Under the pieces are notes generated by a model, which saw nothing but the letters and a program-made list of their open reading frames with translations, searched no databases and was not told the origin of the DNA. Position numbers and translations under genes: made by a program. Shown here piece by piece: positions 866-4,024 of a stretch of DNA of 64,000 nt. The first letter of the stretch is position 1; each line of letters starts with the position of its first letter. This DNA comes from Lachnospiraceae bacterium MC2017. GTDB lineage: Bacteria > Bacillota > Clostridia > Lachnospirales > Lachnospiraceae. The stretch covers positions 62,001 through 126,000 of the forward strand of contig JNJK01000002.1 in the NCBI GenBank assembly GCA_000701625.1, read 5' to 3'.

Positions 866-948
866 TTTATCGTATTTTTTCAAAAAATAGTTGTCCATAT
901 GAAGTTACAGTTCAGACGCAACCGGAACAAAGAATTTCTTATAAGATT

Positions 949-987
949 AAAAAGTTCCTGAAGTTGTAACTCTCCAGGAACTTTTTC
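949..987 (-). terminator. Intrinsic terminator after the subtilase-like gene
   Basis: An inverted repeat AAAAGTTCCTG / CAGGAACTTTTT with a 14-base loop lies directly after the stop codon. It gives a T-rich tail on the minus strand and could act in both directions. Confidence 0.75.
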
Positions 988-988
988 T

Positions 989-2986
989 TTACCATATGAA
1001 TTTAATCTTTACTTTATATTTTTTACGCGTTCCTTCCGGATCACTTATATCACATGAACCAAATACCGCATACAGCCTGACTGTTCCCTGAGCCCCTGGA
1101 TCAACCTCTATTTTTCTGGTTTCCTCATTCCAGAACAGCTTGAAATCATTTGCGGGGATCCAATATGGTTTTCTGCTCGTCCCTGACACAAAAATATCCG
1201 GATCGATTTCTGTAATACCGTTCATAGATATGGTTTTCATGTCTATCTCATATTTTTTTTCTACTACCGGCATTTCTATCGTCAGATTTGCTGAACTTAC
1301 CGTAGTCCATTCACCGGATTTGTTATACTCCATATTTATCTGTACTTCACCGGGGTTCCTGGGTGACAATATACCCTTATTTGATACTCGTGCTATTTTA
1401 TTATCCATCGAGCGATAACGGACTTGTTCACCCGCTCCGGCTCCGTCGAACAGATACGTGATATCAACTTTTTGTCCTGCAGTAAGGGTAGAATCGTTGA
1501 TCCAAAAATCCCCTGCCGCATCATCATATTCTTCATCTTCATCCTCTTCTTCGTCTTCGTCATCATCCTCATCAGCATCTGCATCCACCAGCTCTGCATT
1601 ATTAATGCCGCCTTTAACGATATGCTCACCATAAACATATTCTATATCATCCGCTGTTTCGATCATCGACTCATATACTTCCATGGGACGTTCTTCACCT
1701 TCAATCCCTGCTATTTCCTCATCTGCCGACAAGAGAAGGGCAGCTGACGCTGATACTATTGCAGACGCCTGTCCTGTTCCCACCATCCATGAATACTCAT
1801 TATTTATGTCACATGATAAAATACCGTTTACTTTCCATTCTTCCTGTGTTTCCGCCATTTTCTGTTCGGAAGTATAAAAATCGCCTCCCGGAGCTGCTAT
1901 ATCAACATGATCACCATAATTTGAAAACGACGACAGAGTATCATAACTCGTATAAGATGCCACAGAAATAACACCATCATATGCAGCAGGATAAATTGCT
2001 TCATCGCTTGATGCATCTCCCACTGAAGCAACGAGCACCACTCCTGCTTTCAGCGCATTTTCTATCGCATCCTCCTCTACGCTGAGATAATGCTTTGAAC
2101 CAAAGCTCATATTTATAACATCAACTCCAGCTTCCACAGCATGATTTATCCCGGCAATCTCATCCGACAGACATATTCTACCGTCCTCTGTTACCTTTAT
2201 AATGTACATCTCTGCCCCCGGAGCTATTCCGATACCTCCGTAAGCATTTCCTTTTTCCCCTGCTATAAGCCCTGCTATGTGAGAGCCATGGCCATCCGTA
2301 TCTTCCGCATCACTTTCCGGATCTAAAACATTATAACTTCCCGCTATCCGGTTCTTTAGATCGTCGTGGTCAAGATCCGCTCCGGTATCGAGCACAGCTA
2401 CAGTTACGCCTTCTCCCTCTGTAATATCCCAGGCAAACCCGTTATATACTGAATTATGAAACCACTGATAGCCATATTTATAATAAGGGTCTTCTATCTG
2501 TCCCTGCATTTTCGCATTCGACACCGCACTATCAGTATTCTCCTCTTTATCGTTTGTGACCTCTGTTCCTTCATCTGACACCGGTACTACATCGTCTTTA
2601 ATCTTACGGATCAGATCCGGATATATCGGAGTTGAGGATAGTTCCTCTTCTAATGCACGACTTAGGACAGTCTGGATTTCTTCTTTTAATCCAAGTACAG
2701 CCACCCCATCATTATATTTTATCAACTCAGAACTGTATTCATCCGCAACGTTAGCCGCTTCTTCTTCAGATTCTGCAATAAAAAAAGCCCGATACACATC
2801 ATAATCCCTGCCTTTTTCCAGACCATCAAGTGTGTTCAGAGCTGCCTGCATCTGCTCCGCTGCATCCGCTTTCCTGTCATCAGATATTTCTCTGCTCTCC
2901 GCTGCAAATAGAGTCCCTTCAAGAGATGCCGACATAGAAAGCGCAATAACCAGCGCAATGATACTTTTTAATTTTCCTCTCCTCAC
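989..2986 (-). CDS. Secreted subtilase-fold protein lacking the catalytic serine (probable pseudoprotease)
   Basis: The start is taken as GTG at 2986, with AAGGGG six bases upstream, giving 665 residues. Residues 1-29 form a signal peptide (basic MRRGKLK, hydrophobic core, ending LFAA). Residues 60-115 resemble an inhibitor I9-type propeptide. A peptidase S8 fold follows, with the Asp motif AVLDTGADLDHDDL (D200) and the His motif DTDGHGSHIAG (H233). The usual GTSMA serine motif reads GTGQASA (G405 replaces Ser), and the oxyanion Asn position is Asp (SVGD, D324). Both changes argue against normal proteolysis. A very acidic linker of mostly D/E (about 450-480) leads to a C-terminal Ig-like, BIG_2-like region. 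A sigma-28-like promoter sits upstream. The fold is certain; loss of activity is inferred and the role is unknown. Confidence 0.85.
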   Translation of the reverse strand: MRRGKLKSIIALVIALSMSASLEGTLFAAESREISDDRKADAAEQMQAALNTLDGLEKGRDYDVYRAFFIAESEEEAANVADEYSSELIKYNDGVAVLGLKEEIQTVLSRALEEELSSTPIYPDLIRKIKDDVVPVSDEGTEVTNDKEENTDSAVSNAKMQGQIEDPYYKYGYQWFHNSVYNGFAWDITEGEGVTVAVLDTGADLDHDDLKNRIAGSYNVLDPESDAEDTDGHGSHIAGLIAGEKGNAYGGIGIAPGAEMYIIKVTEDGRICLSDEIAGINHAVEAGVDVINMSFGSKHYLSVEEDAIENALKAGVVLVASVGDASSDEAIYPAAYDGVISVASYTSYDTLSSFSNYGDHVDIAAPGGDFYTSEQKMAETQEEWKVNGILSCDINNEYSWMVGTGQASAIVSASAALLLSADEEIAGIEGEERPMEVYESMIETADDIEYVYGEHIVKGGINNAELVDADADEDDDEDEEEDEDEEYDDAAGDFWINDSTLTAGQKVDITYLFDGAGAGEQVRYRSMDNKIARVSNKGILSPRNPGEVQINMEYNKSGEWTTVSSANLTIEMPVVEKKYEIDMKTISMNGITEIDPDIFVSGTSRKPYWIPANDFKLFWNEETRKIEVDPGAQGTVRLYAVFGSCDISDPEGTRKKYKVKIKFIW

Positions 2987-3273: not shown

Positions 3274-3954
3274 TCATGCCCCAACATTTTCTATTGAATA
3301 AGTCAGCGAAATCTCTTGCATATTTGGAACAACTTTCTTGAATTCGCTAACTATTCTCTCTGCAACCTTTTCTCCGTTACCTGTATCACTTCCCATGAGA
3401 AGTATCGCAAATTGACTTTCAGACAGATGATTCGATACGTCACCTCTCCTAAGAGAGCCGCTTATCACTTCTGCCAGCTTTGAAGCACATTCCTCCTTGA
3501 TTTCTTCTTTTACTTTATTATGCTCCAGATTCAGTAAAATCAGCTGTACATTTATACCCGTACGCTCTATCACTCTTGAAACAAAACGAAAAATATCCTG
3601 AAAACTACCTGTATCGACACGATATGCTCCATTCTCTGTTTCATTCTCGGAAAGAGCATTTATTACTCTGCGTAAAGCCACATCAGTTTCATTAGATGAA
3701 TCCGAATCATCTGATAACTCGTCAGATACATAATAACCACTGTGATAATTCTTCCAATCCTCGCCTTTTCTGTTTCTTTCATACCTGCAGATACTTTCCT
3801 TAACAGTTGTATCTGTTACATCCTTATGAAAATCCGCCCATTTACAATGCCAACATTCCCTAAGACACAGAAGTCCGTTTTCTTCTGGTTCAAACCTCTC
3901 ACAACAATCCCTCTCTCCAACGATCAGATATCCGTCTTCATCATACCTGTGCAT
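3274..3954 (-). CDS. Cys-rich N-terminus fused to a degenerate GGDEF-like domain
   Basis: The start at 3954 is chosen because AGAGGAG lies five bases before that ATG, not before the ATG 24 bases upstream; this gives 226 residues. The first 60 residues carry six cysteines: CC near residue 18, then CLRECWHCKWADF, then SICRYER. That spacing could bind zinc or an Fe-S cluster. The C-terminal half (about 110-226) has the strand/helix pattern of GGDEF domains, but the signature loop reads LSESQFAILL, so it should not make cyclic di-GMP. No membrane segment is seen. It lies 70 bases after the histidine kinase on the same strand and may share its transcript. A sensor or c-di-GMP/nucleotide-binding role is only a guess. 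Confidence 0.6.
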   Translation of the reverse strand: MHRYDEDGYLIVGERDCCERFEPEENGLLCLRECWHCKWADFHKDVTDTTVKESICRYERNRKGEDWKNYHSGYYVSDELSDDSDSSNETDVALRRVINALSENETENGAYRVDTGSFQDIFRFVSRVIERTGINVQLILLNLEHNKVKEEIKEECASKLAEVISGSLRRGDVSNHLSESQFAILLMGSDTGNGEKVAERIVSEFKKVVPNMQEISLTYSIENVGA

Positions 3955-4024
3955 AAAATCTCCTCTATAAACGTCCATTCATATATGGCTCAACATTGCC
4001 GAACATCCGTTTACATCTGTCGTT

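Follow-up and report, generated by a model that had tools for sequence, protein, structure and literature searches.

A conserved S8 subtilase homologue of Lachnospiraceae with glycine at the catalytic serine site and aspartate at the oxyanion site

To our knowledge, pseudoproteases have been described mainly in eukaryotes, with a few bacterial systems besides, and in 2007 Siezen et al. reportedly surveyed prokaryotic subtilases whose catalytic residues differ. The existence of inactive homologues is in itself no novelty, since 42 putative ones were counted in 2008 among 966 prokaryotic serine proteases from five families (PMC2605481; this and the other papers cited by PMC number are used in excerpt). 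A close parallel to the protein described here is offered by CspC and CspA of Clostridioides difficile (Peptostreptococcaceae), clostridial S8 proteins with a subtilase fold, a prodomain and a non-catalytic role in germination (PMC6636752, PMC12880746). The Ser of CspC is replaced by Gly (G485), and the protein has a critical non-catalytic role, its prodomain remaining uncleaved (PMC6636752); it pairs with CspA (PMC12880746). MamO and the degenerate MamE copies of magnetotactic bacteria share a history of repeated duplication, catalytic loss beside active paralogues and re-use of the scaffold, but they have a trypsin-like fold, a role in biomineralisation and a metal site at a surface di-histidine (PMC4794232). 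PIMMS2 of Plasmodium, a pseudoenzyme candidate, has a secretory subtilisin-like domain without the GTS motif, but it is eukaryotic, has a transmembrane domain, and in P. berghei keeps Ser and Asn (PMC5520436). Subtiligase or peptiligase (subtilisin S221C/P225A) combines P225A with an altered residue 221 (PMC7921005), as our protein does, but retains a Cys nucleophile and performs peptide ligation, whereas our protein has no nucleophile and an oxyanion Asp. Among the matches listed, the open-access literature searched held no report of pseudo-subtilases of Lachnospiraceae; the kind of protein is known, and its residue signature, parallel occurrence and setting are new to us and did not turn up in these searches.

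The gene lies in a window of 64,000 nucleotides (the whole stretch analysed) from Lachnospiraceae bacterium MC2017, and its parts are given in Table 1, with residues counted from the GTG start. The subtilase profile PF00082 matches residues 191-445 (1e-47, 163.3 bits against a cut-off of 21.8; profile positions 1-273 of 288), and the equivalog cut-off of mycosin TIGR03921 was missed (170.1 bits against 278.75). Alignments with thermitase and the AK.1 protease, which end before the Ser site, match the Asp, His and oxyanion positions, and all four sites could be read in alignments with other S8 frames of the genus. A preliminary description of this DNA had reported intact Asp200 and His233, with Gly405 (GGA) replacing the Ser and Asp324 the oxyanion Asn, and the sequence and the S8 alignments agree with it on each; it had missed that the Pro following the Ser motif is also lost, at a site (Ala409) that we take to be P225 in subtilisin numbering. 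The triad of an active S8 peptidase is therefore incomplete, with Asp and His present and Ser replaced, and its oxyanion Asn is missing as well. Without a Ser nucleophile a subtilisin has no classical cleavage route, and from this chemistry the protein would be expected not to be proteolytic.

Table 1. Features of the pseudo-subtilase gene and a neighbouring frame, in window coordinates.
Feature	Position	Strand	Remarks
Pseudo-subtilase gene, 665 aa	989..2986	minus	GTG start at 2986, stop 989-991
Signal peptide, residues 1-29	2900..2986	minus	By eye: RRGKLK, hydrophobic stretch, small residues last
Prodomain-like core, residues 55-127	2606..2824	minus	Alpha/beta elements in model
Variable linker joining prodomain to catalytic domain, residues 128-165	2492..2605	minus	
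Subtilase domain, residues 166-468	1583..2491	minus	Profile match and model
Catalytic Asp200, intact	2387-2389	minus	GAT
Catalytic His233, intact	2288-2290	minus	CAT
Asp324 at the oxyanion-Asn site	2015-2017	minus	GAT
Gly405 at the catalytic-Ser site	1772-1774	minus	GGA
Ala409	1760..1762	minus	Site is Pro in 102/104 intact S8 frames of the genus
Acidic linker, residues 469-496	1499..1582	minus	
C-terminal Ig-like module, residues 497-665	992..1498	minus	Ends RKKYKVKIKFIW
Hairpin with T-rich tail	943..989	minus	Likely terminator of the pseudo-subtilase gene
Small protein with partial GGDEF match	3277-3978		Adjoins GHKL kinase and LytTR regulator

The signal peptide (recognised by eye), the prodomain-like region and the acidic linker are present as previously described. 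An Ig-like domain had been named too, and the C-terminal module is indeed there, but its Big_2 match is sub-threshold (0.0054, 17.1 bits against a cut-off of 22.8) and the module is longer than described, covering residues 497-665. Five of the seven secreted proteins of the genus that were fetched (L082, L083, L084, L086 and L088) end with a related Ig-like module, and these modules share with that of the pseudo-subtilase a terminus of the form K-K-[YF]-[KR]-x-K-[IV]-[KR]. The PPC and Big_2 labels of these proteins come from profile matches, and others among them are, we presume, beta-helix-like and LRR-like. The module is possibly one for surface retention or sorting and, since related modules end other secreted proteins, it may hold the pseudo-subtilase at the cell surface. 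At the 3' end of the gene, 936-995 folds at -20.0 kcal/mol around the hairpin of Table 1, which is absent from the output of a simple scan; a promoter scan was uninformative (7 found against 9.8 expected).

Using AlphaFold2 we modelled residues 30-470 from 21 sequences (mean pLDDT 69) and the full-length protein from nine sequences (mean pLDDT 45). In blocks of ten residues the catalytic domain mostly scored 68-98, with values near 40 for residues 371-400, which lie just before the Ser site; the prodomain scored 52-79 over residues 60-109 and 29-45 outside them. The model of residues 30-470 matches thermitase (1thm) with a Z of 37.9 and an rmsd of 2.0 over 259 residues (Foldseek was also run), and on this match the pseudo-subtilase is predicted to have a plain subtilisin fold.

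The pseudo-subtilase differs from CspC in several respects. According to the excerpts cited, Csp proteins have an insertion of about 130 residues with a jelly-roll fold within the subtilase domain, and CspC has lost the His (T170) and kept Asp105; the pseudo-subtilase is without the insertion, keeps the His and has Asp in place of the oxyanion Asn. It also has, unlike Csp, a signal peptide and an Ig-like C-terminal module. Its spacing is 91 residues from the His to the Asn site and 81 from there to the Ser site, and the profile match has no large insertion; the His and Ser equivalents of CspC are at positions 170 and 485 (PMC6636752). Membership of the Csp family was rejected since the jelly-roll insertion is missing and the His and oxyanion sites differ. 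No cspBA-cspC-like cluster was seen, there being no adjacent second S8 gene; the nearest in the genome lies about 39 kb away on the same contig. No Csp chain was found among the 50 best VIA-align structural matches, which has no bearing on Csp membership. In the excerpts consulted, Csp proteins of Lachnospiraceae have intact triads (PMC6636752, PMC12880746), a statement that covers another S8 family and should not be extended to the subtilases of Lachnospiraceae as a whole.

When 48 genomes of the genus were searched at the protein level, 36 contained matches and, besides the window's own gene, three full-length orthologues were found (loci L007, L008 and L009), with identities of 79% in G001, 82% in G047 and 54% in G030. 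All four proteins read Asp/His/Asp/Gly, the Ser sites of the orthologues being GTGQASA or GSGQAAA and the oxyanion site Gly-Asp. Since three orthologues from other genomes carry the same four residues, a single local mutation or sequencing slip is ruled out, in agreement with the preliminary description, which had argued that both catalytic features were lost and that no reading slip was involved; an intact Ser in the orthologues, with this genome alone mutated, would have spoken against it, and none of the three has Ser or Asn at these sites. The codons at the Gly405 site (GGA, GGA, GGG, GGT) and at Asp324 (GAT or GAC) differ among the four, implying that both residues were retained through synonymous change. 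The variable linker is 17 residues shorter in L008. SFG (294-296) and YPAAY (332-336) are invariant in the four orthologues, and by homology with subtilisin we take them to line the substrate groove.

The gene order is also common to all four, with a large gene, presumably of GGDEF type, on one side and, on the other, a GHKL kinase, a LytTR regulator and genes that we take to be MATE-like and nusG/rplK/rplA-like. The GGDEF match of the small neighbouring protein is below cut-off (0.0013), and at 40% coverage KH1P17 has no counterpart of it there. A scan of named genomes gave six loci, of which three are the orthologues already described (two of them sharing the protein id); they lie in Lachnospiraceae bacterium NK4A144 and KH1P17, presumably both cultured rumen isolates, and in an uncultured Lachnospiraceae MAG. 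Among 397 genomes of the family (334 genera, with at most three candidates scored per genome), 1e-70 was passed by G000 and G030, both of this genus.

We determined pairwise Nei-Gojobori dN/dS by region for pairs of Ser-less (dead) proteins and for active pairs. In the catalytic domain four dead pairs gave 0.088, 0.089, 0.068 and 0.082 (dS being near saturation in the last, and a fifth pair saturated; the L060/L063 pair, described below, is saturated in this domain), and five of six active pairs gave 0.162, 0.113, 0.067, 0.212 and 0.218. The dead pairs are thus not above the active ones (0.068-0.089 against 0.067-0.218), and with dN/dS of about 0.07-0.09 purifying selection acts on the catalytic domain of the pseudo-subtilase. 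In the C-terminal part the values were 0.084, 0.059 and 0.057 for three dead pairs against 0.225, 0.198, 0.147, 0.143, 0.191 and 0.093 for six active pairs, a loose comparison since the active pairs bear other modules. Compared with the catalytic domain, the pro region is less constrained in the dead pairs (0.383, 0.285, 0.171 and 0.291) and in most active pairs (0.204, 0.262, 0.114, 0.600 and 0.246). The count of invariant positions among the four orthologues is 172 of 303 in the catalytic domain and 93 of 166 in the C-terminal part (497-662), with 26 of 73 in the prodomain core, whereas the first linker has 2 of 38 and the acidic linker 2 of 28. Selection is therefore visible on the subtilase domain and the C-terminal module and not on every part, the linkers being kept in kind and hardly in sequence; the earlier claim that selection keeps the protein is supported. 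Relaxed decay is ruled out by the dN/dS values together with the codon changes. Conserved loss of catalytic residues is thus combined with selection and, by the model, with a retained fold, as in a pseudoprotease.

The PF00082 search detected S8 proteins in 36 of the 48 genomes (121 matches). From these we assembled a census of 122 distinct S8-like frames, made up of 120 of the 121 matches and two further frames, with L036-L046 (named copies, other named loci and viral loci) excluded; the match outside the census, L145, reads intact. Asp, His, Asn and Ser are all present in 104 frames, five read Asp/His/Asp/Gly, two read Asp/Gln/Asp/Ala, and in three the site is strongly altered, with Arg for both His and Asn and, in two of them, Phe for Ser. 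All 105 frames that have Ser and in which both sites could be read have Asn, and the seven frames with an oxyanion Asp carry Gly or Ala in place of the Ser. In the 104 intact frames the Ser motif is followed by Pro in 102, and Gln follows the Ser in 27. The strongly altered proteins, of 1124-1191 aa, are L147 (minus, 1269), L148 (minus, 1742) and L150 (minus, 930), the first two having the Phe. Another Ser-less type, found in L060 (minus, from 1109) and L063 (+, 1139), has His changed to Gln, Asn to Asp and Ser to Ala, with no prodomain recognisable by eye; L074 (minus, 1480; G023), a truncated relative, reads GNA where the Ser would stand.

A tree of 59 catalytic domains, built with masked key columns (12 of the 71 rows, being fragments, near copies, surplus viral rows or short frames, were excluded), places the four dead orthologues in one clade (100/99), sister to the Ser-intact L001, L054 and L048 (98/95). 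The same join had a support of 92 in a quick tree of 115 of the 122 frames (seven with fewer than 150 filled columns, including L150 and L074, were excluded). It was not among the starred sets of an 85-row tree (30 of the 115 rows, divergent or near-identical and including the dead L147 and L148, were excluded), in which L060, the other dead type, likewise has L054, L001 and L048 as its nearest intact rows. The sister relation is thus strongly supported in one tree of three and, since the other two are less clear, is likely and not settled; the 59-row grouping suggests that the gene was duplicated in an ancestor of these species. L001, L054 and L048 resemble the pseudo-subtilase in their signal peptide (by eye), prodomain-like region and subtilase domain and are closest to it in the 59-row tree, but they have Ser, Asn and Pro intact and another C-terminal module. 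Their rows come from three of the four genomes that bear the pseudoprotease and from no other genome, the fourth being 75% complete. The window's genome encodes four other S8 proteins, all with Ser and Asn. The pseudo-subtilase is real, conserved and secreted, and its sister is probably a live enzyme.

The same set of changes was found in L130 (G034:C355, frame + 666), a single sequence from one MAG whose 3' end is cut by the contig end. It reads Asp/His/Asp/Gly with Pro changed to Ala and has GTGQAAA at the Ser site, yet it is not an orthologue, falling in another group of 17 rows (100/100); of the six relatives shown, five have GTSM and one GTSQ, all with Pro. A single origin of the window clade and L130 was rejected (log-likelihood 63.4 lower, p-AU 0.0011), in a test whose group had been picked by the masked residues and with the quick tree already known. 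The three exchanges at the Ser, Asn and Pro sites therefore occur together in two separate lineages. A single origin of the window clade and L060/L063 was not rejected (p-AU 0.222), so independence of these two losses is not claimed. Two Ser-less origins are thus established, and up to four appear on the quick tree, although its starred branches alone force one. Besides the window clade and L130, DNA patterns for Gly-x-Gly-[Gln or similar]-Ala hit eight other places in the 48 and 397 genomes and, with a slightly different pattern, seven in 393 genomes of the class, and none of these 15 places had an S8 profile match. Reversed control patterns matched three genomes in each of the first two scans and, in the class scan, more genomes than the pattern itself; Ser-less sites that are spelled differently escape these patterns, and the genomes scanned are a sample. 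Since the signature occurs in one genus only among those sampled, it may be a narrow specialisation.

The reading that we favour, and consider fairly probable, is that of a secreted pseudoprotease, derived by duplication of an S8 protein, with a widened acidic pocket that binds a polypeptide at the surface without cutting it. An S8 subtilase gene would have duplicated in the ancestor of a few species of this one genus, and one copy would have exchanged its nucleophilic Ser for Gly, its oxyanion-donating Asn for Asp and the Pro of the following helix for Ala, while keeping the subtilisin fold, the Asp-His pair, the SFG groove strand, the prodomain and the C-terminal Ig-like module. Engineered subtilisins with P225A or P225N have a shorter helix at residue 221, which moves by 0.5 Å and makes space on the substrate side (PMC7921005). 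From this effect, together with Gly in place of Ser, we predict that the pocket is opened, and Asp324 would render it acidic beside His233. The predicted opening, the charge of Asp324 and the invariant SFG and YPAAY lead us to propose a binding pocket, and the pattern of the changes suggests re-use rather than wear. What the groove holds at the cell surface, with no turnover, could be the protein's own prodomain left uncleaved, a partner protein or a peptide of foreign origin, the ligand in the pocket itself being perhaps a polypeptide or a cationic group. The looser prodomain (dN/dS 0.17-0.38, as in most active pairs, 0.11-0.60) does not favour the prodomain as the main ligand. Peptide binding of the ordinary kind could be impeded by an oxyanion-site Asp, which counts against the reading that we favour. 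A 'binding or structural protein', as suggested earlier, is likewise a proposal made from the sequence.

More tentatively, Asp/His/Asp/Gly with the Pro to Ala change might be, rather than decay, a definite second use of the subtilisin site, that is, a widened acidic pocket selected at least twice and independently within this genus for a specific ligand, such as a polypeptide, a free amine or a cation. A dead site that is conserved in relatives and paralleled in a distant cousin suggests a new, non-cutting job, and if this possibility is correct, the genus repeatedly recruits dead subtilases as secreted binding proteins beside live ones. Live and dead paralogues stand side by side in one genus, and the active site was remodelled identically in two lineages, a natural experiment in what a subtilisin pocket becomes once cutting stops; the dead copy and its live relative form a testable pair in the isolates NK4A144 and KH1P17.

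Rather unlikely, in our judgement, is a role as partner of an active paralogue, in which the pseudo-subtilase would pair with, activate, restrain or shield a Ser-intact S8 protein, either the sister or another of the four in the genome. The availability of these four intact enzymes would suit it, as would the restriction of the L001-type clade to three of the four pseudoprotease genomes, given the incompleteness of the fourth. CspC/CspA are believed to play such a role toward CspB, and MamO plays one toward MamE; MamE-type duplication with a degenerate copy, seen three times, has been read as selection for pairing (PMC4794232, in excerpt). The pseudoprotease and its closest paralogue are, however, on different contigs and differ in their C-terminal modules, and neither fusion nor operon joins them.

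It is very unlikely that the site has acquired an altered chemistry, with Asp200, His233, Asp324 and the space left at Gly405 forming a metal or cation site or activating water, so that the protein would be another enzyme or a metal binder. Two lineages arrived independently at the same changes, which is beyond what simple decay predicts, Asp at the oxyanion site accompanies the loss of Ser across the census, and a metal-binding pseudoprotease is known in MamO (PMC4794232, in excerpt). Against this, no nucleophile is left, and L060/L063 have the Asp without the His, so Asp324 need not act with His. A nucleophile moved to a neighbouring Thr or Ser is unsupported, Thr404 being Ser and Ser408 being Ala in L009. 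Finally, although Ser-less S8 frames are not rare in the genus and L074 is truncated, a decaying protease gene or a sequencing error is scarcely credible in view of an open frame with an identical residue set in four genomes, dN/dS of 0.068-0.089 and synonymous change at the Gly and Asp codons.

Beyond the pseudo-subtilase, an S8 subtilase family occurs on viral contigs (L152-L178), the largest of 532,729 bases, and 14 of these 27 viral loci were taken into alignment A3. A viral scan with an active sister as query found no relative, and the viral S8 frames that were read (L042 and L046) have the GTSMANP motif intact. The intact-motif S8 protein L145 (G046:C1:83500-88000) adjoins a gene that we take to encode an AAA-type ATPase, an arrangement that may deserve comparison with protease-ATPase defence systems.
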